A stretch of 28,343 nucleotides of DNA from IMG/VR virus record IMGVR_UViG_3300037343_000529, positions 1-28,343 of that record. One strand, given 5' to 3'. This DNA comes from a virus. The notes beneath the pieces were generated by a model that saw only the letters and a list, made by a program, of their open reading frames with translations, had not been told where the DNA came from and ran no database searches. The first letter of the stretch is position 1; every line of letters starts with the position of its first letter. The position numbers and the translations under genes are program-made. Shown piece after piece: positions 771-27,070 of this stretch.

Positions 771-2030
771 ATGGACCTGGTCTTTGCACCGAGCCAGATC
801 GAGACCTGGTCTCTCGACCGGCTGCGGCCCTATGCCCGCAACGCCAAGATCCACGGCACCGATCAGGTGGCCAAGATCGCGGCAAGCATGGCGAAGTTCG
901 GCTGGACCGTGCCCTGCATGGTGGCCGACGATGGCGAGCTGATCGCCGGGCATGGGCGGGTGCTGGCGGCTGCGATGCTGGGGTTGAAGGACGTGCCGGT
1001 GATCCGGCTCAGCCACTTGGACGAGGCAGAGCGCCGCGCCTATCGCATCGCCGACAACAAACTGACCGAGCTGGGCGAATGGGACGAGGCGATGCTACGC
1101 GACGAAATCGCCGGGCTGCTGGCCGAGGATTTCGACCTGTCGCTGCTGGGCATCACCGATCAGGATCTGGACGCCTTGCTGCGGGATCCGGATCAGGTGG
1201 AAGGTGGAGCTGTCGAGGGCGAGGATGACATTCCCGAGCCGCCGGTCACGCCGGTGTCGGTCGCGGGCGACCTGTGGCAGCTCGGGTCGCACCGGTTGAT
1301 CTGCGGCGACAGCACGTCCGCCGATGTAGTCGGACGTCTGCTGGGCGATGTGCGGCCGCTGTTGATGGTGACCGATCCACCCTACGGCGTGGAGTACGAT
1401 CCCTCCTGGCGCAACCAGGCGGGTGCGGCCAAGACCAAGCGCACCGGCAAGGTGCTGAACGACGACCGGGCAGACTGGCGCGAGGCTTGGGCGCTGTTCC
1501 CCGGCGATGTCGCCTATGTCTGGCACGGTGCGCTGCACGCGGCAGAGGTGGCCGAGAGCCTCATGGCGGTAGGCTTCAACGTCCGGTCGCAGATCATCTG
1601 GGCCAAGGACAGCCTAGTTTTCAGCCGTGGCGATTACCACTGGCAACATGAACCCTGCTGGTATGCCGTCAAGAAGACCGGCAAGGGCCACTGGGCGGGC
1701 GACCGCAAGCAGACCACGCTATGGAAGATCGCCAACAAGGACCAGGACGCTACCACGATCCACAGCACCCAGAAGCCGGTCGAATGCATGCGCCGCCCGA
1801 TGCTGAACAATTCCAACCCCGGTCAAGCGGTGTTTGAGCCATTTATGGGATCCGGCACCACGCTGATCGCGGCGGAAACCACCGGCCGGGTGTGCTTCGG
1901 GATCGAATTGAACCCCGCATATGTCGATGTGGCCATCGAGCGCTGGCAGCAATTTACCGGCGCGACTGCCGTACTGGCGGAAACGGGCGAGACCTTTGCC
2001 GACCTGAAAGCCAAGAGGCTGGCAGCATGA
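771..2030 (+). CDS. ParB-like domain DNA methyltransferase (DPPY type)
   Basis: A 419-residue protein with two parts. Residues about 10-135 form a ParB/sulfiredoxin-like domain with GELIAGHGR (55-63) and YRIADNKLTELG. Residues about 165-400 form an S-adenosylmethionine-dependent methyltransferase with catalytic motif IV DPPYG (202-206) and, later, the cofactor-binding motif FEPFMGSGTT (355-364); motif IV before motif I is the beta-class order. DPPY usually means N6-adenine methylation. The start at 771 is chosen because extension upstream runs through a terminator and promoter-like boxes; no good ribosome binding site is seen. No restriction partner is visible, so it is an orphan enzyme, likely shielding phage DNA or affecting gene expression. 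Its stop overlaps the next start as ATGA. The target sequence cannot be read from the protein. Confidence 0.9.
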   Translation: MDLVFAPSQIETWSLDRLRPYARNAKIHGTDQVAKIAASMAKFGWTVPCMVADDGELIAGHGRVLAAAMLGLKDVPVIRLSHLDEAERRAYRIADNKLTELGEWDEAMLRDEIAGLLAEDFDLSLLGITDQDLDALLRDPDQVEGGAVEGEDDIPEPPVTPVSVAGDLWQLGSHRLICGDSTSADVVGRLLGDVRPLLMVTDPPYGVEYDPSWRNQAGAAKTKRTGKVLNDDRADWREAWALFPGDVAYVWHGALHAAEVAESLMAVGFNVRSQIIWAKDSLVFSRGDYHWQHEPCWYAVKKTGKGHWAGDRKQTTLWKIANKDQDATTIHSTQKPVECMRRPMLNNSNPGQAVFEPFMGSGTTLIAAETTGRVCFGIELNPAYVDVAIERWQQFTGATAVLAETGETFADLKAKRLAA

Positions 2031-3391
2031 ACGCGCCCCTCTTGCCGGGCCAAATTCAGCACTGGCCGCTGGCCCGGCTGAAACCCTACGCCCGGAACGC
2101 CAAGACCCACGATGCCGATCAGGTCGCCAAGATCGCTGCCAGCATGGCGGAGTTTGGTTGGACGGTGCCGGTGCTGGTGGCCACCGATGGCGAGCTGATC
2201 GCGGGGCACGGTCGCATCCTGGCCGCCGCCCATCTCGGGCTGACCGACGCGCCGGTGATTGTGCTGGGCCATCTGACCGAGGCGCAGCGGCGAGCCTACC
2301 GCATCGCGGACAATAAGTTAACGGAGCTGGGTGGCTGGGATGAAGCCCTGCTCTTGCAGGAACTGCAGGCGCTTCTGGCAGAGGATTTCGACCTCGGGCT
2401 GATCGGGATTCCGGAAGATGAACTGGATGCCCTGCTGGCGGATGCCGACGATCGCCCGGCGATTTCCGACGATGCGGCGGATGCCATCCCCGAACCGCCT
2501 ACTGAGCCCATCACCCGCCCCGGCGATATCTGGGCACTGGGCAAGCATCGGCTGTGCTGCGGCGATGCAACTGATCCCACCGCCGTGGCCAAGCTGATGC
2601 AGGGCGAACAAGCGACGCTGATGTTCACCTCGCCGCCCTATGCACAGCAGCGCGACTACGGCGCGGCAAAGGAAAAGGTCGGTGATTGGGATGCGCTGAT
2701 GCAGGGCGTGTTCACCGCCGCCCCGGTCACAGCCGACGCGCAGCTGCTGGTTAACCTCGGCCTCGTGCACCGCGACAGTGAATGGCAGCCCTATTGGGAA
2801 GGATGGGTCGAATGGATGCGCACCTCTGGCTGGCGACGCTTTGGCTGGTATGTGTGGGATCAGGGTCCGGGCCTGCCGGGCGACTGGAACGGCCGCCTGG
2901 CCCCGTCGCACGAGTTCATTTTCCACTTCAACCGCGCGCCCCGCAAACCGCACAAAACGGTGCCATCGAAGCACGTGGGCGAAACTTTGGGCGGCGGTGG
3001 GCTGCGCGGCGCAGACGGCACCGTCCACGCCAAAACCGGCACCGGCAACGCGATCCAGAGCCACCGCATCCCGGACTCGGTTTTCCGCATCATGCGCCAC
3101 AAGGGTGGGCTGGGTGCGGCAGGATCCCATCCGGCCGTGTTCCCGGTGGCACTGGTCGAAGCAGTGCTGACGGCGTTTTCGGATCCGGGCGACCTGATTT
3201 ATGAGCCGTTCTGCGGCTCCGGCACCCAGCTGGTCGCCGCCGAGCGCGCTGGGCGACGCTGCTTCGCGATGGAGCTGGACCCGGTCTATTGCGACGTCGC
3301 GGTGCGGCGGTGGGAAATGGCGACGAGCAATGTAGCGCTGCGCGAGCGCAAGGGCGTAACCGTTGATGAATTGGAAGGAGCGGCAGAATGA
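2027..3391 (+). CDS. ParB-like domain DNA methyltransferase (TSPPY type)
   Basis: A 454-residue protein built like its neighbour: a ParB-like domain (about 8-140, with GELIAGHGR and YRIADNKLTELG), then a methyltransferase domain with motif IV TSPPY (201-205) and cofactor motif YEPFCGSGTQ (392-401). SPPY is typical of N4-cytosine methylases, so it probably modifies a different base from the upstream enzyme. The N-terminal domain aligns without gaps to that of the first enzyme at about three quarters identity by eye, while the catalytic halves differ outside the motifs. This points to duplication of the DNA-reading domain followed by domain exchange. The start overlaps the previous stop (ATGA), indicating coupled translation. 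Confidence 0.9.
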   Translation: MNAPLLPGQIQHWPLARLKPYARNAKTHDADQVAKIAASMAEFGWTVPVLVATDGELIAGHGRILAAAHLGLTDAPVIVLGHLTEAQRRAYRIADNKLTELGGWDEALLLQELQALLAEDFDLGLIGIPEDELDALLADADDRPAISDDAADAIPEPPTEPITRPGDIWALGKHRLCCGDATDPTAVAKLMQGEQATLMFTSPPYAQQRDYGAAKEKVGDWDALMQGVFTAAPVTADAQLLVNLGLVHRDSEWQPYWEGWVEWMRTSGWRRFGWYVWDQGPGLPGDWNGRLAPSHEFIFHFNRAPRKPHKTVPSKHVGETLGGGGLRGADGTVHAKTGTGNAIQSHRIPDSVFRIMRHKGGLGAAGSHPAVFPVALVEAVLTAFSDPGDLIYEPFCGSGTQLVAAERAGRRCFAMELDPVYCDVAVRRWEMATSNVALRERKGVTVDELEGAAE

Positions 3392-17131: not shown

Positions 17132-17370
17132 ATGCACCGCGCACGTATGAGGGCTGGCAGGTCTGGGATCTTGCCGGACGGCTCGGCGGCCAGATCCGCG
17201 CCATACCCGGCGTTGTGCTGGGCTGGGACATGAGCGCGGCACTGGCCATGGCGGATGCACTGGGCATCGATCCGCGCGCAGCGGCCGAACTGCTACCCGT
17301 CCTTGAAGCAGTGATGGCGCGCAAACTTAACGAGCAAATGGATGCACCCGGGGGAGGACAACATGGCTGA
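16694..17370 (+). CDS. Tail assembly chaperone, -1 frameshift product (gpGT-like)
   Basis: Slipping back one base at 17032-17038 joins the first 115 codons to the frame that ends at 17370, giving about 225 residues. The added part runs RLRALADWVYGGGEGYC, then AVCKGPCPDCPQVVN and the segment EGWQVWDLAGRLGGQIRA. This protein-like reading extends unbroken upstream of the GTG at 17128, which is why the downstream frame is better seen as an extension than as a separate 80-residue gene. The cysteines in YCAVCKGPCPDC suggest a small metal site. In lambda, gpG and gpGT are made this way; the T part binds the tail tube protein. Separate initiation at 17128 cannot be excluded. Confidence 0.8.
17032..17077 (+). 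promoter_or_regulatory. Programmed -1 ribosomal frameshift signal
   Basis: The heptamer A AAA AAC (17032-17038) is in the correct register of the short-form frame (GAA AAA AAC). Seven bases later a 10-bp stem begins: CGCCCTTGCC (17046-17055) with GGCGGGGGCG (17068-17077), including two U-G pairs, around a 12-base loop. Heptamer, spacer length and stem all match known bacterial -1 signals. Confidence 0.85.
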
Positions 17371-19816
17371 GAAGCGGGTTTCTGTGCGCCTGTCCGCCAC
17401 TGGAGGGCGGCAGGTGAAGGCCGAGCTGGAAGGCGTCGGCGAGGCTGGTGCGCGCGGGTTTGGGCGGCTGTCGCGCGAAATGGAAGGCGCGAATGCCCGG
17501 CTGGCTGCCTTTGCGCGGCGCGCTCGCGTGGCAATGGCCGCAGCTGCCGCCGCAATCGCGATCGCAGCGACTGCGATGATCCGCTCAGGGCTGCAGACAG
17601 TTGATGCGCAAGCCAAGCTGGCCGCCTCGCTCGACACCACGGTCGAGAGCATTCAGGTTCTGGAGCGCGCGGGCGATCTGGCGGGCGTGTCGATGGGGCA
17701 GATCGAACAGGCCACCATGCAGCTGACGCGGCGGCTGAGCCAGGCCGCTGCGGGCACCGGGCCTGCTGCGGACGCGCTTGACCGACTGCGCCTGTCGGCG
17801 GCCGAGTTGCAAGCGCTGCCGCTCGATCAGCGTATCGCGCTTATTCAGGAGCGACTGGCAGAGTTCGTGCCCGAAGCCGAGCGCGCCGCGGTAGCCTCGC
17901 AGCTGTTTGGTGATCGTGCTGGTCTGGTGTTCACCCGCATTGATACGGCCACGCTGCGCCAAGCCACGCAAGATGTGCGCGACTTCGGGGTGGTGGTCTC
18001 CGATCAGGATGCCGCGCAGATTGAGCGGACCAATGATGCGATCTCGCGACTGGGTCTGATCTGGCGAGGGCTGTCAAATCAGCTGGCTGTTGCAGCCGCC
18101 CCTGCGCTCGAGGCCGTGGCTGGTGCGATGGCTGCTGTTGCGCGCACCACAGGGCCGCTGGGTGTTGCGATCCGCACACTCTTTGAGAATCTCGGGCGCC
18201 TGACTGCCTACGCGACCGGTATCGCAACCCTGATGGCAGGCCGGTTCGTGGCGGCCAAGATCGCGGCAGCTGTTTCGGTCCGGGGGCTCGCGATGGCACT
18301 GGTGATCCTGCGCGGGGCACTGCTGCGCCTGCCCTTTATCGCCTTGATCGTCGGGGCGGGAGAACTGGTCCACTGGTTCGGTCGCCTCGTGCGCGGCGCG
18401 GGCGGCTTTGGCACCGCGCTGTCGCTGCTGGGCGATCTCGCCCGCGAGGTCGCGGAACGCATGGCGCTGGGCACGCTTGCCATGGGTCTGCGGATCATCG
18501 CCAGCTGGTCCGAGATCAAAGCCAGCATCGCCGAGGCACTGCAGACCTCGCTCGCGGCCGTGGTCGGCTTTGGCAATGCTGTGCTCAACACATTCCAAGG
18601 CGCGTTTGAGGCGGTCAAGGTGCTTTGGGGCGCGCTGCCGGGCACGATCGGGGATTTCGCATTCCAGGCGGCCAATGCGCTGATCGCGGGTGTTGAGGCC
18701 ATGCTCAATGGTGTCGGCGAGCGCATCAATGGGTTTTTGGAGGGGATCAACACAGGGCTTGAGGCGCTGGGTGTGGAGCGCCGGGTGTCGCTGATCGGCA
18801 ATCTGGAGCTAGGCCGGATCGATAATCCATTTGAAGGATCCGCGACCGAGGCGGGCTCCCAAGCACGCGCGGCATTCCAGGCAGCCTTCACGTCCGACCC
18901 GATTGCACTGCCGGATCTCGGGCTCGGCCAATACGCATCCGATGCCCGCGCTGAGGCAGCTGCGCTGCGCGAGATGATGGCCGGTGTTGTCGGTGCCGCG
19001 ACGGCTCCGCTCGAGTCGGTTGCGGCACTTCGGGAGGCCGTAACTGCGAGCGGGCTGGCGGCGGAGGCAGGGCTGAATGGCGCGCGTGCGGCTGCCGAGG
19101 CGCTGGAAGATACGCTGGAGGCCACAGAAGAGGCAGCAGGCGCTGCGGGCGCAGCAGGGCGCAGCGCTGGCGAAGCGCTGCGGGACGGCGCTGATACGGC
19201 GCGCACTGCATGGGAGGCAACTGCGGACGCAGTGCGCGCAGCGCAGGAACGCTCCCGTGAGATTGCCAAAGGTCTGGCGCAGGACATCACCGGCCCTATC
19301 AAGGAGGCACTCAAATCTGGCGAGTTCAGCTGGCAGACATTCGCCAGTGCCATTGCAGGTATCGCGGGGAACCTCGCCAACCGGCTGATTGATCTCGCCT
19401 TCAAGCCGATCGAGAACGCGCTGATCAGCGCCTTTTCCGGCGGTGGCGGGGGTGGTGGCTTCCTCGCGAGCCTGTTCGGCTTTGCGAAGGGCGGTGTCTT
19501 TGCGGGTGGCCAGGAACTGACCGCCTTCGCCCGGGGCGGCGTCGTCACCCGACCAACGGTGTTTCCCTTCTCGCGTGGTATCGGACTGATGGGCGAGGCA
19601 GGGCCCGAGGCAATCCTGCCTCTCCGGCGCGGCCGGGGCGGGCGGCTTGGCGTTGAGATGAACAGCGAGGGTGCGGCCTCTGCAGCCCCATCTATGTCTA
19701 CCCGGATCATCAACGTGCTCGACCCGTCGATTGTTGGCGACTACCTCGCCACGCCCTCTGGCGAACGCGCGATCCTGAACGTCATCCGCCGCAATCGTGG
19801 GGCGATCAATGCCTGA
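17363..19816 (+). CDS. Tail tape measure protein
   Basis: An 817-residue protein that sets tail length and is ejected with the DNA. The N-terminus (VSVRLSATGGRQVKAELEGV) leads into long alanine-rich helices with a hydrophobic stretch at about 57-73; another hydrophobic region lies near 300-340. The C-terminal part has a glycine run and the typical FAKGGVF, FARGGVVTRPTVFPF and GEAGPEAILPL segments. GGGGGAGG before 17363 fixes the start; an ATG at 17342 lies upstream of this site. Lambda's gpH has 853 residues. The gene overlaps the chaperone frame and the next gene by eight bases at each end. Confidence 0.95.
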   Translation: MAEKRVSVRLSATGGRQVKAELEGVGEAGARGFGRLSREMEGANARLAAFARRARVAMAAAAAAIAIAATAMIRSGLQTVDAQAKLAASLDTTVESIQVLERAGDLAGVSMGQIEQATMQLTRRLSQAAAGTGPAADALDRLRLSAAELQALPLDQRIALIQERLAEFVPEAERAAVASQLFGDRAGLVFTRIDTATLRQATQDVRDFGVVVSDQDAAQIERTNDAISRLGLIWRGLSNQLAVAAAPALEAVAGAMAAVARTTGPLGVAIRTLFENLGRLTAYATGIATLMAGRFVAAKIAAAVSVRGLAMALVILRGALLRLPFIALIVGAGELVHWFGRLVRGAGGFGTALSLLGDLAREVAERMALGTLAMGLRIIASWSEIKASIAEALQTSLAAVVGFGNAVLNTFQGAFEAVKVLWGALPGTIGDFAFQAANALIAGVEAMLNGVGERINGFLEGINTGLEALGVERRVSLIGNLELGRIDNPFEGSATEAGSQARAAFQAAFTSDPIALPDLGLGQYASDARAEAAALREMMAGVVGAATAPLESVAALREAVTASGLAAEAGLNGARAAAEALEDTLEATEEAAGAAGAAGRSAGEALRDGADTARTAWEATADAVRAAQERSREIAKGLAQDITGPIKEALKSGEFSWQTFASAIAGIAGNLANRLIDLAFKPIENALISAFSGGGGGGGFLASLFGFAKGGVFAGGQELTAFARGGVVTRPTVFPFSRGIGLMGEAGPEAILPLRRGRGGRLGVEMNSEGAASAAPSMSTRIINVLDPSIVGDYLATPSGERAILNVIRRNRGAINA

Positions 19817-20975
19817 TCCCAATGGCTGGCCACCGCTCTGGCCCTTTGCGGCGGCGCAGGAGATCACCGAGGTGCTGGAATGGCGCACCGACGTGCTGTC
19901 ATCGCGCGCGGGCGAACAGCGCATCGCGCTTCGGCCCCGCCCGCGCGAGATCGTCACGCTCCGGCACCGGCTGGATGCGTTGGGCATGGCCCGCGCGGCG
20001 GAACTGGCACGGACCGGATTTGCCGGGGAGTGCCATGTGCCGCTCTGGCACATGGCACTGCAGCCGGACACAGATCTTGCGCAGGGGGCAACGGAGATCA
20101 TGATCGACACGACGGTGTCGGATTTCCGCGCCGGAGGATTGGCAGCGATCGGGATCGACGGTGGCGCAGCAGCACCCGTGGAAATCGCGACCGTTCAACC
20201 GGACAGGCTGATCTTGGCAGAGCCCGTGGCCCTGCAATTGCCCACCACGTCCGTGGTCGCACGACGGATCACGGTCGCGCCGATCCGCGCGGGCGTGCTG
20301 ACCTCTGCCGTCGAGATCGCACGAGGGCGCCAGAGCGACGGCGTGGCCAGCGCAACCTTCCTTCTGCGCGATGCCCCCGATCTCACTGCCTCTGTGCTGC
20401 CCAGCCATCTCGGCCAGCCAGTTCAGATCGATCCAAGCCTCGTTCGTGGCCCGTTGACCGCGAGCCTCCGCCACGCCGTCGAATATGTCGATAATGGCTT
20501 CGGCCCCGTCACAGTCGAACCCTTGCGCGATGTGTTCGAACGGGGCGAGGCCATCACGCTGAAGGCGCAAGGCGCGACCGAGCGCCGGGCGCAGCGCCGC
20601 TGGCTCTGGTCCTTGCGCGGGCGGCAGGCAAGCTTCTGGCTTCCAACCTGGGGGCGCGAGCTGCAGCTGCGGGCCGCGATGACCTCGGGATCGACGCTGA
20701 TGCGCGTGGCACCTGTCGCCGCGCTGGCCGCCTATGTGGGGCGCCGGGTCCTGCTGGAGATGCCAGGCGGATCTCGGTTTAGAACGATCACTGCCGCCAT
20801 CACAGATGGGCTTGTTCACCGCCTCACTCTGTCCTCCAACCTAGGCGAGCCGGTCCCGCTCGGGACAAAAGTGCATTTCTTGACCCTTGTGCGCTCGGAC
20901 GCGGACCGCGTGGAGATCCGTCATGGGCCCGTCGCCAGCGAAGTGACCCTGCCGGTTATCGAGATTCCACAATGA
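19809..20975 (+). CDS. Tail protein after the tape measure (distal tail-like)
   Basis: A 388-residue protein rich in beta segments, with PDPNGWPPLWPF at the start and RRWLWSLRGRQASFWLPTWGRELQL near residue 260. Its place between the tape measure and the DUF2163 hub corresponds to the distal tail protein in gene transfer agents and to lambda gpM. This role is inferred from order, supported by the tryptophan-rich WSLRGRQASFWLPT segment that I recognise from phage tail proteins of this kind. The ATG at 19809 overlaps the tape measure stop; a GTG at 19797 is possible. The stop overlaps the next start (ATGA). Confidence 0.75.
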   Translation: MPDPNGWPPLWPFAAAQEITEVLEWRTDVLSSRAGEQRIALRPRPREIVTLRHRLDALGMARAAELARTGFAGECHVPLWHMALQPDTDLAQGATEIMIDTTVSDFRAGGLAAIGIDGGAAAPVEIATVQPDRLILAEPVALQLPTTSVVARRITVAPIRAGVLTSAVEIARGRQSDGVASATFLLRDAPDLTASVLPSHLGQPVQIDPSLVRGPLTASLRHAVEYVDNGFGPVTVEPLRDVFERGEAITLKAQGATERRAQRRWLWSLRGRQASFWLPTWGRELQLRAAMTSGSTLMRVAPVAALAAYVGRRVLLEMPGGSRFRTITAAITDGLVHRLTLSSNLGEPVPLGTKVHFLTLVRSDADRVEIRHGPVASEVTLPVIEIPQ

Positions 20976-21832
20976 CCTATGACAGCATCGAGTCCTCGGC
21001 CGCCGAGGGCCAACCTTACTTTCTCTATCAATTCGTTGAGGGCGCAGGGGTCTGGCGTTTCACCAGCCGGGCCGAGGCCTGGATCAGCGCGGCCAGCGGC
21101 GGCGACGAGATCATCTGGGAGCCCGCCGCAGTTGCGCATGGCGACGTTGTGCAGACGAGCGAGATCGAGCGGGGTCGCCTAGAGCTGACCTGGCCGCTTT
21201 CGCATCCCTTCGCGCGCCGGTTCCTTGCGCCGCTCGGAAATACCCTGGTGACGCTGACCATCTTTCGCGGCCACGAGCAGGTCTTGGGCGAGACGGTGGC
21301 GCACTGGAAGGGGCGCGTTGTGGGCGCCGAGGTCGAGGGCCAGCGGATCATCCTGAGTTGCGAATCCGTATTCAGCACGCTGCGCCGCGCAGGCGTGCGG
21401 GCCAAGTACCAGCGCCTCTGCCGCCATGCGCTTTACGGGCGCGGTTGCGGGCTCGACATAGCGTTTCACTGGCAGAGCGGGACGGTGACGTCTGTCGCGG
21501 GCAACATCGTGTCGATCCTCGAGGCAGCAGAACAGCCCGATAGTTGGTATCGCGGCGGTGTGCTGCGGTTTGGCACGCAACTAGGCTTCATCACCGGCCA
21601 TGCGGGCGGGGTGCTCACGCTCTCGCGCCCGATGCCAGAGCTGGCAGCAGCGCAGGCCACCCCGGACCTCGACCCCGAGACCGGCGCTCCACTGCCCGTC
21701 CTCGTCGACATCGCGCCGGGCTGTGACCTACGCGCCGCCACCTGCGCGGCCAAGTTCGGCAATCTTCTCAATTTCGGGGGCTTTCCCGAAATCCCGGGCC
21801 GCAATCCCTTCGGCGGCAGTTCCATCGTCTGA
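20972..21832 (+). CDS. DUF2163 / BR0599-type tail hub protein
   Basis: A 286-residue protein of the phage BR0599 family. After beta domains (GDVVQTSEIERGRLELTWPL) come LCRHALYGRGCGLD and, near the end, GCDLRAATCAAKFGNLLNFG followed by GFPEIPGRNPF, all family hallmarks. Cysteines 150, 159, 251 and 258 make a four-cysteine set like the Fe-S cluster ligands of lambda gpL and the gene-transfer-agent hub. It should form the trimeric hub closing the tail tube. The start overlaps the previous stop (ATGA). A gap of 75 bases without features follows. Confidence 0.9.
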   Translation: MTYDSIESSAAEGQPYFLYQFVEGAGVWRFTSRAEAWISAASGGDEIIWEPAAVAHGDVVQTSEIERGRLELTWPLSHPFARRFLAPLGNTLVTLTIFRGHEQVLGETVAHWKGRVVGAEVEGQRIILSCESVFSTLRRAGVRAKYQRLCRHALYGRGCGLDIAFHWQSGTVTSVAGNIVSILEAAEQPDSWYRGGVLRFGTQLGFITGHAGGVLTLSRPMPELAAAQATPDLDPETGAPLPVLVDIAPGCDLRAATCAAKFGNLLNFGGFPEIPGRNPFGGSSIV

Positions 21833-22156: not shown

Positions 22157-22371
22157 CGCGTGTGACAATCCAGGACCTGCGCGATGCGCGCTATTGCCTC
22201 ACGGGCGTGCGGCCTTGGTTTCGCCGCCACGGCCTCAATTGGCAGCACTTTCTGGATCACGGCATCGATGCCGACGGGCTACGCGCGACCAATGATGCTC
22301 TTGTGGAGCCGGTGATCCGGGTCGCGGAGATGCGCGCAGCAACGCAGGAGGCCAGCGATGGGCGGGCGTAG
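22153..22371 (+). CDS. Small conserved protein before the tip gene
   Basis: A 72-residue protein, TIQDLRDARYCLTGVRPWFR followed by RHGLNWQHFLDHGIDADGL. The same pattern (a D-L-R-x-x-x-x-C-x-x-G-x-x-x-W-F core and a L-x-W-x-x-F-L-x-x-G-I segment) occurs in small proteins encoded next to tip genes in many phages, without known function. Coupled to the upstream gene by ATGA and overlapping the tip gene by 14 bases. Confidence 0.7.
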   Translation: MTRVTIQDLRDARYCLTGVRPWFRRHGLNWQHFLDHGIDADGLRATNDALVEPVIRVAEMRAATQEASDGRA

Positions 22372-25300
22372 CAAGGCTCAGACCGTCGGATATCGCTATT
22401 CTCTGGGCGTGCATCTGGCGCTCTGCCACGGGCCGATCGATGCCATCCGCGAGATCCTCGTTGATCGCCGGACCGCGTGGTCTGTCACGACCGGGGGTGG
22501 TTTCAGCGGCGGCGGTGCGGCCGTCGAGAACCGGATTGGGACCGCCCTGGCGATGACGGCCACCGCCGCGCTGGCGGGCGACAGCGGGGCGACCATCACC
22601 TTCCCCGGCACGCGCGCGAGTGTGCGGATCGGGCGGGATTATCGCCTGGTGCTGGCAAACGGGTCGAGCCAGACCGTGACGCTGCAGGGCGTGGCTTTCA
22701 ATGCAACCACTGGCGTCACCTCATGGTCTGTCCTGCCCGAGGCGCTGAGCTTCCCGGCGCAATCGGTCGAGGTGTTGGAGGCCACGCAGGGCGCCAACAA
22801 CGCTGGCGCGGGCGGTGGACGCATCCGGATCGACAAGCCAGACCTCTTCGGCGGTGAAAGCCGCGAGGGCGGTATTGTTGGCGATGTCGACGTACTGATG
22901 GGCGGGCCTGCACAAGGGCAGAACGACTACCTTGCTACCCGCATGAACCGAGACCTGCCCGGCTATCGCGGGCTCTGCAGTCTGGTGCTGCGGCAGGTGT
23001 ATCTGGGGATCAATCCCTACCTGAAGCCATGGGCGGTGCGCGTGACGCGGGTGCTGGTGGGTGAGGCAGGCGCTGCGCAATGGTATCCCGACAAGGCACC
23101 CATTGTGCCGGAGGCCAACATCTCCGATGCGGCGATCTACATCGCACTCGATGTCTCAGGCTCGATGTCGGGCACGCGCATGGCGGCGCAGAAGGCAGGT
23201 GTCGCAGCCCTCATTCGCGAGATCAGCGCAGGCGTCGATCCTGACCGGCCGAACGACATGCGCATTGTGCTCTGGAACGCTGGCGTCGCGGGACTGATCG
23301 AACGACGCAACATGGAGCCCGAGGATTACACCGCGCTCGAGGCCTGGATGCTGGCGCTGTCCAACGGCACATCGGGCGGCACCAGCTTCGATGCCGCCTT
23401 CTCGCAGGCAGGCGCATTCTTTGCCGGTGGCGGATCGAAGCGCCGGATCGTCATCTTCGTGACCGATGGCGAGCCATCGCCTGTGTCGTCCGTGGATGCG
23501 GCACTCGCCACGATCGCCACACTGCCGCCTGCCGACATTTTTGGGTTCAACATCGCGCTCGCCAACACCACCTTCACCGCGCGCATTGACAACACGCCCG
23601 TGGACGGCGTGCCGGTGATCCCGCCCGGTAACCCTGAGGCGCTGGTCGCATCGCTGCGCGGGGCGTTCGGCAATGGGCCTGACATGAACCCGGCCCATAT
23701 TATCCGCGAGTGCCTCACGAACCGCGATTGGGGATTGGGCTATTCTACGATCGAGATCGGAGCCAGCTTCACGGGCGCGGCCGACCGGCTTTATATCGAA
23801 GGCTTCGGCCTCTCACTGATCTGGCAGCAGGACAGCTCGATCGAGGAGTTCATCGGCAGCGTTCTGGACCACATCGATGCGACGCTCTTCATCGACCGCC
23901 GCACCGGGCTGTGGGAATTGAAAATGATCCGGGCGGATTATGTGGCAGCAAACCTGCCGCTCTTCGATGAGACCAATGTCGTGGACTGGGGCCGCCTGGG
24001 GCGGCGCGCGCCCTCCGATCTGATCAACAGCGTCACCGTGCGGTTTACCGATGCCTGGACGAATGATGTTGGCGCTGTCAGCGTCACCGATACCGCACGG
24101 GTGCAGGCGATGGGCGAAGTAATTGCCACCACGCTCGACTATCCGGGCATTCGCTATCAGGGGTTGGCGGTACGCGTGGCCGAGCGCGATCTGCGCGCGC
24201 TCTCGGTGCCGCTGCTGACCGGCGAGATTGTCGTCAATCGCGAGGGCGCTGACCTCGGCCCCGGCGACGTGATCCGGTTGCGCTCGGACCGGCTGGGGCT
24301 GGGCGACGTGGTCATGCGCATCTCCGAGATCGGTCAGGGTGACGGCCGCGATAACGGCATCCGCCTGAAGCTGGCAGAAGATGTCTTTGCCTTGGGCATA
24401 ACGGCCATCGCGGGCGGGCGCATGCCCTCCGGCACCGGGATCGCCGCCCCGCCGCGCGCGCTGGCCCGGCGTCTGGTGGAAGAAGCACCGTATTGGCTGC
24501 TCGTGCGCGAGCTGGGCCACAGCGAAGCGGATACCATTTTGAGCGAGGATCCGGCCGCAGGCGCGATTGTTGCGACGGGTGAGCGGCCGAGTGCGGATGC
24601 GCTGGCGGCCGAGCTCTGGATCGATCCTGGCACCAGCCCGGCACAGGAAGGGGTCGTAGCCTTCGCGCCAACGGCATTGTTGGCCGCAGACCTCTCTGAT
24701 GATCCGGAGGCGCGAGTCATCCCCGTCACTGGCTGGCGCGACATTGGTGAAGTCGGCATTGGCACTCTGGCCAGCATTGGCGGTGAACTCATCCGCATCG
24801 ACGGCATAACGCAAACCGCGATCACCGTAGGCCGCGGCTGCCTCGATACCGTGCCCCGCGCGCATGCGGCGGGCACACCGGTCATCTTCTTCGACGAGGC
24901 GGCGCGGATCACTGAGGACTCCTGGGCGGCGGGCGAGACCCTTGCGGTTCGGCTTCTGCCCGAGACTGGTCGCGGCACGCTGGCGTTTGCAATGGCGCCG
25001 GAAGATAGCGTGACCCTGGATCGCCGCGCCATCCGGCCACTGCCGCCGGGTCGGGTGCAGGGCAATGGCAGCTACACTCCCGATGTCGACGCGCTGATCA
25101 GTGATGACCTGGTGCTGACCTGGACCCATCGCGACCGGCTGACCCAGACCAGCCCGGTCATCGTCGATCACACCGGCGCCTCCATCGGGCCTGAACCGGG
25201 GGTGGAATACAGTGTCGAGGTCCGCTGGGTCGATCCGGACACCGGCGCAGCGATCCTGCCCGCGGGCATCGTGATCGACGCAGGTGCCGGGACCAGCTGG

Positions 25301-25489
25301 ACCCTCACGCCCGACGACATCCCTGAGAGTGGCGCGCCGGAACGCACCGCTGAGATCGATGTCGCAATCCGGTCCCGCCGCCTCGTGGAAGGTGCGTGGC
25401 TCACCGACCGTGAGGCGCGAAGCTTCCGCCTGACGGCCCCCTTCGCCGCCGGGTGGGATCGGGGTTGGGGATTTCTCTGGGGCAGCTGA
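22358..25489 (+). CDS. J-like tail tip / host-specificity protein with VWA domain
   Basis: A 1043-residue protein. The N-terminal GGRSKAQTVGYRYSLGVHLA and the parts PDLFGGESREGGIVGDVDV, GINPYLKPWAVRV and MNPAHIIRECLTNRDWGLGY are the conserved hub of the J-type tip family. Two stretches interrupt it: residues about 43-152, and about 258-440. The second is a complete von Willebrand factor A domain with metal-site motifs DVSGSMSG (265-272), GGTS (T342) and VTDGEPSP (D370). The C-terminal third is beta-rich, ending with a fibronectin-type-III-like region. The protein should make the tail point and contact the host. AGGAGG precedes the start. Confidence 0.92.
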   Translation: MGGRSKAQTVGYRYSLGVHLALCHGPIDAIREILVDRRTAWSVTTGGGFSGGGAAVENRIGTALAMTATAALAGDSGATITFPGTRASVRIGRDYRLVLANGSSQTVTLQGVAFNATTGVTSWSVLPEALSFPAQSVEVLEATQGANNAGAGGGRIRIDKPDLFGGESREGGIVGDVDVLMGGPAQGQNDYLATRMNRDLPGYRGLCSLVLRQVYLGINPYLKPWAVRVTRVLVGEAGAAQWYPDKAPIVPEANISDAAIYIALDVSGSMSGTRMAAQKAGVAALIREISAGVDPDRPNDMRIVLWNAGVAGLIERRNMEPEDYTALEAWMLALSNGTSGGTSFDAAFSQAGAFFAGGGSKRRIVIFVTDGEPSPVSSVDAALATIATLPPADIFGFNIALANTTFTARIDNTPVDGVPVIPPGNPEALVASLRGAFGNGPDMNPAHIIRECLTNRDWGLGYSTIEIGASFTGAADRLYIEGFGLSLIWQQDSSIEEFIGSVLDHIDATLFIDRRTGLWELKMIRADYVAANLPLFDETNVVDWGRLGRRAPSDLINSVTVRFTDAWTNDVGAVSVTDTARVQAMGEVIATTLDYPGIRYQGLAVRVAERDLRALSVPLLTGEIVVNREGADLGPGDVIRLRSDRLGLGDVVMRISEIGQGDGRDNGIRLKLAEDVFALGITAIAGGRMPSGTGIAAPPRALARRLVEEAPYWLLVRELGHSEADTILSEDPAAGAIVATGERPSADALAAELWIDPGTSPAQEGVVAFAPTALLAADLSDDPEARVIPVTGWRDIGEVGIGTLASIGGELIRIDGITQTAITVGRGCLDTVPRAHAAGTPVIFFDEAARITEDSWAAGETLAVRLLPETGRGTLAFAMAPEDSVTLDRRAIRPLPPGRVQGNGSYTPDVDALISDDLVLTWTHRDRLTQTSPVIVDHTGASIGPEPGVEYSVEVRWVDPDTGAAILPAGIVIDAGAGTSWTLTPDDIPESGAPERTAEIDVAIRSRRLVEGAWLTDREARSFRLTAPFAAGWDRGWGFLWGS
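23129..23677 (+). other. von Willebrand factor A domain within the tip protein
   Basis: Codons 258-440 of the tip gene. Hydrophobic strand IYIALDVSGSMSG (MIDAS motif 1, D265, S267, S269), a helix, strand MRIVLWNAG, the threonine motif GGTSFDAAF (T342), strand RRIVIFVTDGEPSP (D370) and strand DIFGFNIAL follow in the order of VWA domains. All five metal-site residues are present, so it should bind Mg2+ or similar and a ligand carboxylate. The flanks (QWYPDKAPI before, MNPAHIIRECL after) are adjoining parts of the ordinary tip fold. Confidence 0.88.
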
Positions 25490-25529: not shown

Positions 25530-26204
25530 ATGCCGGAACGGATCATGCCGGGGCTGGGGCTGCGCGCCTTCTATGACCCCGGCCAACGCAACTGGGGGAC
25601 CAGCCTCAGCGAGGACCTGCGCCTCGTCTCCACCCTCTTGCAAGCGCGCGCTGCATCGCGCAGCACGCCTCTGCCCGCTAGTGGCAGCGCGGGCCAAATT
25701 CTGATCGTGCCCGCCGCGGCAGGCGCTAATGCCAATGCCGTCGCGCTCTGGGACGAGGTAGACGGAACCGCGGCATGGGTCTTTCTGCCCGCGCAGGATG
25801 GCTGGCAATTCTGGATCGCCGACGAGGCCCGGCATGTCCGCTTCGCGGGCGGGGCATGGGTCGAGGTGCCGCGCCCCGGCGTCGTGCGCATCCGCACCCT
25901 GACCGCCACCAGCCACACGCTCGACGCCAGCGATCTGGGCAGCATCATTGAGACCACAGGCTCCTCAGCCGTCACCGTGACGATCCCGGATGAGGCAACC
26001 GTGCCCTTCGAGACCGGCGCGCTGATCAATGTCACCCAGATTGGCACGGGGGTTGCGACGCTCACGGCATCAGCTGGCGTCTCGCTAAACGGCATCACTG
26101 CCGGATCGGTCGCGCTGGATGGGCAATGGTCGGGGGCAGCACTCACCAAGCGCGGGGCGGATGCCTGGGTCATTCAGGGCGCGCTGGCAGGAGCCGTCGC
26201 ATGA
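25530..26204 (+). CDS. DUF2793-type tail fibre protein
   Basis: A 224-residue protein. Residues about 40-125 (PLPASGSAGQILIVPAAAGAN, ...WVFLPAQDGWQFWIADEARHVRFAGGAWVEV) resemble the DUF2793 domain of phage tip and fibre proteins. The rest (HTLDASDLGSIIETTGSSAVTVTIPDEA...) looks like a beta-rich fibre shaft segment with L-D-x-x-D-x-G type turns. It follows the tip gene as host-range proteins do. AGGAC lies upstream of the start. Coupled to the next gene by ATGA. Confidence 0.75.
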   Translation: MPERIMPGLGLRAFYDPGQRNWGTSLSEDLRLVSTLLQARAASRSTPLPASGSAGQILIVPAAAGANANAVALWDEVDGTAAWVFLPAQDGWQFWIADEARHVRFAGGAWVEVPRPGVVRIRTLTATSHTLDASDLGSIIETTGSSAVTVTIPDEATVPFETGALINVTQIGTGVATLTASAGVSLNGITAGSVALDGQWSGAALTKRGADAWVIQGALAGAVA

Positions 26205-27070
26205 GCATTCTGATGATGCGCGCCGCGATCCTGGCGCAAGGCGGCGCTGCGGCACCCCCCGAGGATATCGGCAGCGCCTGGGAACTCGACGCGACCCGCC
26301 GCCCTGCAGGCTACGCGCTCTCAGACGGCAACCAGACCGCAATCAACACCTCGGGCGGCACCAACTACCTGCGCTGGGTGCCAACCGTCAAAGCCATCCA
26401 GCCGACGGACGGGCGGCGCTATTGGGAAGTATTTTGTGCAGCCAGCGGGGCCGCCACCTTCAATGGCTATCTCGGCGTCGTCTCGGCCCCTCAACGTGAT
26501 GAGTACAACATCGGGAACAACCCGATCACGCTCGGCTCCATTGGCTATCGTGGCAACGGCACACTTTGGTCCTCTAATACGGCGTCAGCTTCCCAGCGCG
26601 TGACAGGCCTTCCAACCTATGGTGCGGGCGATGTGCTGATGTTTGTGCTCGATCCCGCTGCCGCCAGTCTCTGGATTGGCAAGAACGGCATCTGGCACGA
26701 CGATCCAGTGAGCGGCGCGCCCACCTGGACCGCAGGCGGCAGCACCGCCTTCCATCCACATATCCAGGGACGCAATCCGGGAGATGGCGGCACCCTGCGC
26801 TCGCAGCCATCGCAGTTCAGCTATCCGGTTCCGCCTGGGGCGCAGGCGCTGAGCTTCGAGGAGCCAGATCTCTCAATATTCGAGACGCATGCCTTCATCG
26901 AGTTCGGCTGGGACAACGACCTCAGCATCAGCGAGTTTGAGGCCTGGCTCGATCTCGGCGGCGGCGCGAATCTCAACTCTACCGGAACCTCGCTCTTTCT
27001 TGATCATGGTGGGGGCAAAGCGCTCTCCACCGCCCATTCTGCCCTTTATATCGAAGTGGAACTGCCATGA
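26201..27070 (+). CDS. SPRY-like domain fibre protein
   Basis: A 289-residue protein. Residues about 30-210 form a SPRY/concanavalin-like beta-sandwich: RRYWEVFCAA, FNGYLGVVSA, SIGYRGNGTLWSS, GDVLMFVLDPAAASLWIGKNGIWHDDP, and FHPHIQGRNPGDGGTLRS. Such domains bind sugars or proteins, so a receptor-binding role at the tail tip is likely. The last 80 residues (SIFETHAFIEFGWDNDLSISEFEAWLDLGGG) form a separate domain. The true start is the ATG at 26201, overlapping the previous stop; an upstream in-frame start at 26126 is unlikely because it lies inside the preceding gene. Confidence 0.75.
   Translation: MSILMMRAAILAQGGAAAPPEDIGSAWELDATRRPAGYALSDGNQTAINTSGGTNYLRWVPTVKAIQPTDGRRYWEVFCAASGAATFNGYLGVVSAPQRDEYNIGNNPITLGSIGYRGNGTLWSSNTASASQRVTGLPTYGAGDVLMFVLDPAAASLWIGKNGIWHDDPVSGAPTWTAGGSTAFHPHIQGRNPGDGGTLRSQPSQFSYPVPPGAQALSFEEPDLSIFETHAFIEFGWDNDLSISEFEAWLDLGGGANLNSTGTSLFLDHGGGKALSTAHSALYIEVELP

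Follow-up and report, generated by a model that had tools for sequence, protein, structure and literature searches.

Some of what is described below is already known from other phages, namely the exchange of a VWA domain in a fibre/baseplate gene and the insertion of carbohydrate-binding modules (CBMs) into tail proteins (extracts of PMC2147016 and PMC7291167). In the "evolved Dit" of Gram-positive siphophages, CBMs are lodged in distal tail protein loops (PMC7291167), and extracts of a 2007 report describe gp164 of Bacillus phage 0305phi8-36 as a fibre/baseplate gene into which a VWA was swapped (PMC2147016). In extracellular contractile injection systems, too, VWA domains are associated with the tail fibres (PMC12923769). 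In the baseplate of phage JBD30, the hub is a trimer on which the upper baseplate protein gp50 is seated, the two proteins touching each other, and gp50 holds a metal site formed by four cysteines (Cys147/156/238/245).

We analyzed 28,343 nucleotides of a viral record (IMG/VR IMGVR_UViG_3300037343_000529), hereafter the window, which encodes a JBD30-type baseplate. Its hub contains a VWA, and the features that matter for the argument are the following:

17342-19816, tape measure gene, upstream of the hub
19797-20975, plus strand, distal tail protein (phrog_1082), no VWA here; the homologues of loci L164, L166, L167, L171 and L196 carry one
20972-21832, plus strand, upper baseplate protein of the JBD30 gp50 type (phrog_778, phrog_15205; Pfam BR0599), no VWA here
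22358-25489, plus strand, baseplate hub (J-like tip protein), 1043 aa, the VWA carrier (phmmer, Foldseek, PHROG, Pfam)
22496-22810, plus strand, second hub insert, residues 47-151, beta-rich in the model (alignment gap)
23105-23680, plus strand, VWA insert, residues 250-441 (fold 258-437), between WYPDK and MNPAHI (Pfam, AlphaFold2, Foldseek, gap in the JBD30/Chi alignment)
23150-23164, plus strand, metal site (MIDAS) DxSxS, residues 265-269 (conservation in 41 representatives)
23381-23383, plus strand, MIDAS T342, invariant in 41 representatives
23465-23467, plus strand, MIDAS D370, invariant in 41 representatives
23588-23614, plus strand, subfamily signature loop D411-N-T-P-V-D-G-V-P419 (conservation)

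The baseplate hub and its neighborhood

The ORF that carries the VWA is a single intact frame without interruption, and homology across both hub segments, together with the hub fold, assigns its product to the baseplate hubs of the JBD30/phage Chi type. A phmmer search of the PDB returned the Chi tip protein (8vjh, 9.6e-96) and the JBD30 hub (8rk3, 1.1e-78), and Foldseek with the whole hub model found the same two structures (8rk3, 5.5e-55; 8vjh, 4.6e-48), followed by the tip proteins of lambda, T1, and T5. The protein also matches phrog_1101 (2.8e-260) and, at residues 524-658, Pfam Phage-tail_3. Residues 1-46, 152-249, and 442-955 are the parts alignable to 8vjh and 8rk3, and JBD30 residues 46-139 and 150-662 pair with the segments that flank the VWA. 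The whole protein matched 758 records, just 20 of them at a coverage of at least 80%, and among named genomes its close relatives are for the most part prophages of Rhodobacteraceae. This phage family can occupy a single genome more than once, with three or four loci lying on different contigs: L129, L145, and L153 in Roseovarius autotrophicus, and L124, L149, L151, and L165 in Alterinioella nitratireducens, where hub identity to the window's protein goes from 88% down to ~60%.

The upper baseplate protein, whose gene (20972-21832) lies near that of the hub, has four cysteines spaced by 9 and 7 as in the JBD30 gp50 metal site, and is followed by two small genes that also precede the hub gene. 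Downstream of the hub come a DUF2793 protein and then genes whose PHROG matches are to tail-fibre or unknown families; the product of one downstream gene (26126-27070), with a sub-threshold match to the SPRY domain (2.2e-4), is possibly another tail binding protein. Elsewhere in the window, two ORFs in tandem (495-2030 and 1892-3391) overlap, and each matches ParB-like nuclease as well as DNA methyltransferase families (phrog_498, phrog_620); apparently they represent a duplicated fusion gene.

An inserted VWA domain with a conserved metal site

In JBD30/Chi-type hubs, the segment from WYPxK to MNPAHI is a loop of ~10-15 residues (~15 in Chi, ~10 in JBD30), and the VWA of the window's hub sits exactly in the corresponding alignment gap. 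A sequence-only reading had placed a complete VWA at residues 258-440 (23129-23677) of a J-like tip protein, between two segments of the tip fold, and had assigned D265, S267, S269, T342, and D370 to its metal site. The coordinates proved exact and the complete MIDAS consists of the very residues named, while both flanking segments align to the JBD30 hub and the Chi tip protein; as borders of the insert, 258-440 are a few residues too narrow, the strict insert extending from ~250 to ~441 in the JBD30/Chi alignment. The profile search, set beforehand as the test, did return a VWA: Pfam VWA_2 matches residues 261-372 of the hub (E 5.6e-8, 33.8 bits vs. a cut-off of 27), and reaches 3.9e-9 when the VWA sub-sequence is searched alone.

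The AlphaFold2 model, computed from a 33-sequence alignment consisting solely of the window and fetched loci, shows alternating beta/alpha elements at residues 258-437 in a Rossmann-like VWA fold, in which strand 258-265 ends at D265, strand 362-369 ends directly ahead of D370, and the last helix spans 426-437. Ten-residue pLDDT means are 80-94 for 261-410 and fall to 64-80 for 411-440, versus a mean of 78.8 for the whole hub, whose pTM of 0.45 implies that the placement of the VWA on the hub is not fixed by the model, though the domain itself is confident. Foldseek relates it to the VWAs of inter-alpha-inhibitor, integrin alpha-E, CMG2, TEM8, TRAP, and PTMP1 (~1e-9 to 1e-5), as well as to 9das, which carries the name of a vWFA domain from a large adhesion protein of Aeromonas, and a profile of the tail VWAs searched against the PDB returned, among others, collagen VI, 9no5, 9das, BatB, TRAP, and Gram-positive cell-wall anchored proteins. 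A chance match to VWA is ruled out by the Pfam, AlphaFold2, and Foldseek results and by the conservation of the MIDAS.

To evaluate this conservation, we started from 159 VWA domains and kept 41 representatives that share less than 85% identity. Their MIDAS string is DSSTD in 40 cases and DTSTD in the remaining one, D265 and S269 being unchanged throughout and S267 in all but one. Four of the five MIDAS residues fall among the eight fully invariant columns of ~187 (chance ~7e-6), and the metal ligands are constant while the loops round the metal site are highly variable (N336, S339, S374, V376). A second loop, DxTxxDGVP, is conserved as strongly as the metal site, with T413 and D416 invariant in the 41 representatives. 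The usual VWA topology puts this loop (411-419) away from the MIDAS, and its invariance is unaccounted for by a simple MIDAS adhesin; it is possible that it forms a second metal or docking site.

Among 81 close relatives, dN/dS is 0.091 for the VWA, 0.071 for the structural core, and 0.186 for the second insert (47-151), so that in the window's clade the VWA evolves under purifying selection near the level of the core. Rapid change is common in receptor-binding parts; pairwise dN/dS gave no sign of it for the VWA in this clade, and we rejected rapid adaptive evolution of the domain. The quickest-evolving part of the hub is the second insert, which the sequence-only reading did not mention. It has no counterpart in JBD30, Chi, or the aligned phage isolates, and is confined to the Rhodobacteraceae clade among the aligned proteins.

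Exchange at the hub junction and relocation within the baseplate

Sorting hub ORFs with profiles for the hub halves and a home-made VWA profile, we found in the loci examined 201 hubs, of which 145 hold a VWA at the junction, 30 nothing, and 26 another insert of 140-351 aa. The junction in near relatives thus contains nothing, laminin-G-like domains, sugar-binding jelly rolls of the GH2 type, propeller-like domains, or unassigned domains. Laminin_G_3 scores above the cut-off in the inserts of L194 and L202. One group of inserts weakly matches GH2 sugar-binding or beta-galactosidase domains, and a jelly-roll insert of this group that we modelled (pLDDT 82) resembles structures of GH2 beta-galactosidase/glucuronidase and of carbohydrate-binding PA14 (best 1.3e-5). 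The propeller-like inserts, assigned from weak matches (340-351 aa in L111, L178, L180, L182, L185, and L195), gave no Pfam match above cut-off among those scanned; their owners are Mesorhizobium prophages and one viral contig. We considered whether the non-VWA inserts could be diverged VWAs and found no support for this, as neither Pfam (those scanned) nor the home-made profile (all) matched a VWA in them, and one folds as a GH2-type jelly roll. For L181, the VWA match was partial.

On a tree of 69 hubs computed with the insert left out of the alignment, the three insert states require 16 changes, and if just the starred branches are counted, the label "VWA" still has to change at least 10 times, and so does the label "other". 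Well-supported sisters differ in their insert, VWA against other, in the pairs L002/L197, L091/L102, and L090/L176. To judge from this phylogeny, the hub junction is a socket at which whole domains have been exchanged during evolution. Since unrelated folds of up to ~350 aa are tolerated there, the junction is expected to be exposed.

The sequence-only reading had suggested looking for the insert in other phages, and this search was productive: beyond the 145 hub ORFs, the VWA occurs in isolates infecting six host genera (Bordetella, Erythrobacter, Xanthomonas, Stenotrophomonas, Variovorax, and Pseudomonas), so it is not an isolated oddity of one contig. Searched alone, the VWA matched 18 phage records, and lies in the J-like hub gene in those that were opened; the homologous gene of Bordetella phage MW2 carries the annotation "von Willebrand factor type A" in its deposit. 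The host labels of L156 (Acidobacteria) and of L175 and L177 (Anaerolinea) may be binning errors and are excluded from our statements on hosts.

The VWA is found in other baseplate proteins as well. Four loci, L166 (Alexandriicola), L167 (Ruegeria), L171 (Seohaeicola), and L196, have a hub without a VWA, in some cases ~59% identical to that of the window, and carry the domain between the two halves of their distal tail protein, while L164 (Wenxinia) has it in both proteins. In a tree of the VWAs, the distal-tail copy of L164 is nested within the hub VWAs and the remaining distal-tail copies form a second group, which requires at least two arrivals in this protein. Furthermore, the upper baseplate protein bears an N-terminal VWA, in addition to that of the hub, in Bordetella phage MW2, in PaMx28 of Pseudomonas, and in several contigs; phrog_15205, which has matches in the VWA as well as in the upper baseplate protein, reflects this fusion. 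The DxTxxDGVP loop is common to the VWAs of all three carrier proteins. Separately, the distal tail protein of Erythrobacter phage ZS04 (L002:2781-4370) has 529 aa against 392 in the window and gave no Pfam match; it may hold yet another insert.

Proposed role and comparison with known systems

We consider it likely that the VWA is an exchangeable, outward-facing, metal-dependent accessory adhesin on the exterior of a siphophage baseplate. The fold, the conservation of the metal site, the identity of the hub, the exchange, and the relocation find their support in the sequences; from these we infer surface exposure, metal binding, adhesion, and the nature of the ligand. A VWA with an intact metal site would have entered the hub at a surface loop, giving three copies per virion if the hub is trimeric as in JBD30. 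The termini of a VWA lie opposite its metal site. They are also neighbors, as extracts of PMC3919171 indicate; with the insertion in a loop, the MIDAS should therefore point away from the hub. Since the junction otherwise holds domains of sugar-binding type, binding to the host surface is the likeliest job: through its bound cation (Mg, Ca, or Mn), the MIDAS would coordinate an acidic group on a host-envelope ligand, which may be a protein, as the sequence-only reading suggested, or a glycan, adding a reversible grip beside the dedicated receptor-binding proteins. Over time, the VWA at the socket would give way to sugar-binding-type or other domains, disappear, or shift to the neighboring upper baseplate or distal tail protein. 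The metal-dependent adhesin put forward by the sequence-only reading thus gains indirect support from the invariant MIDAS, the exchange with sugar-binding-type domains, and the moves of the VWA, while the role stays a prediction. A literature search on the receptors of VWA-bearing isolates gave nothing decisive, and one for binding, metal, or host-range data on the VWA or other socket domains found none.

The VWA could instead be a structural or assembly part whose metal site binds a neighboring baseplate protein and stabilizes the tip or its assembly. Purifying selection near the level of the core and the invariant second loop (411-419) would fit such a role, as would the phages with a VWA in both the hub and the upper baseplate protein, two components that are in contact in JBD30. 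Yet the VWA is also found in other proteins, and related hubs hold nothing or unrelated folds at the site, so that no conserved partner can require it; we regard this explanation as unlikely. More doubtful, taken as a whole, is an extension of the adhesin hypothesis that would make a phage-specific DxTxxDGVP subfamily of VWAs an integrin-like grip switched by metal. Exchanged with lectin-like modules in the hub socket and mobile among three proteins of the baseplate, this grip would set host tropism and couple binding to tip opening.

The intact MIDAS and a C-terminal VWA helix that runs straight into the hub could also evoke a metal-gated trigger, in which the binding of a ligand or cation shifts this last helix, as in integrin I domains, and signals the hub to open the tip. 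Nothing in our data indicates such an allosteric link, however, and VWA-less hubs, some of them ~59% identical to that of the window (L166, L167, L171, L196), must open too, while the VWA can be housed by another protein, the distal tail or the upper baseplate one; the trigger is therefore highly improbable, and with it the suggestion of the sequence-only reading that the VWA drives tip rearrangement, for which we found no evidence, loses ground. Least probable of all is a VWA that specifically binds the type IV pilus, often used by phages with this class of hub (JBD30 and AXL1, according to their authors), because such use needs no VWA: JBD30 binds the pilus via fibres and its hub has none, and the hub of the pilus-dependent AXL1 (771 aa) is, judging from its length, too short for one.

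The accessory adhesin that we favor finds its nearest parallels in evolved Dit and in three other sets of described proteins. The hubs of JBD30 (gp53, 8rk3) and Chi (8vjh) are the matching protein with matching flanking segments, and have neither the VWA nor the 47-151 insert. The adhesive VWAs of CMG2/TEM8, TRAP, and bacterial large adhesins (9no5, 9das) have the VWA fold and MIDAS in common with the phage domain, but are not virion proteins, and 9no5, where compared, does not have the NTPxDGVP loop. In 0305phi8-36 gp164, a VWA likewise occupies a fibre/baseplate gene in which relatives have another domain; unlike the window phage, this is a giant phage of a Gram-positive host, the gene is a different one, and the extracts of PMC2147016 describe neither a fixed socket nor moves between proteins. 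The sequence-only reading knew of no characterized phage tip of this kind, which holds for function, whereas VWAs had been noticed earlier in gp164 (extracts of PMC2147016) and in the MW2 deposit. We found no report of the hub socket, or of VWAs in three different baseplate proteins, in the open-licence papers searched.

As in evolved Dit, an accessory binding domain sits in a loop of a core tail-tip protein in some relatives only, and the distal tail proteins of L164, L166, L167, L171, and L196 hold the VWA within them. The differences are that the module is a MIDAS VWA with predicted binding and not a CBM, that its chief carrier is the hub, as in the window (relatives such as L171 having it in the distal tail protein), and that the hosts are Gram-negative wherever they are well established. 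These observations define, in a widespread hub of Gram-negative siphophages, a socket where whole binding domains swap, and reveal one type of metal-site VWA in three proteins of one kind of baseplate. They offer a testable route to what such phages grip, and allow otherwise unlabelled "tail proteins" to be interpreted in many prophages of Rhodobacteraceae. The evolved-Dit idea would thereby come to cover MIDAS domains as well as sugar-binding modules, and to apply in a different part of the phage world.
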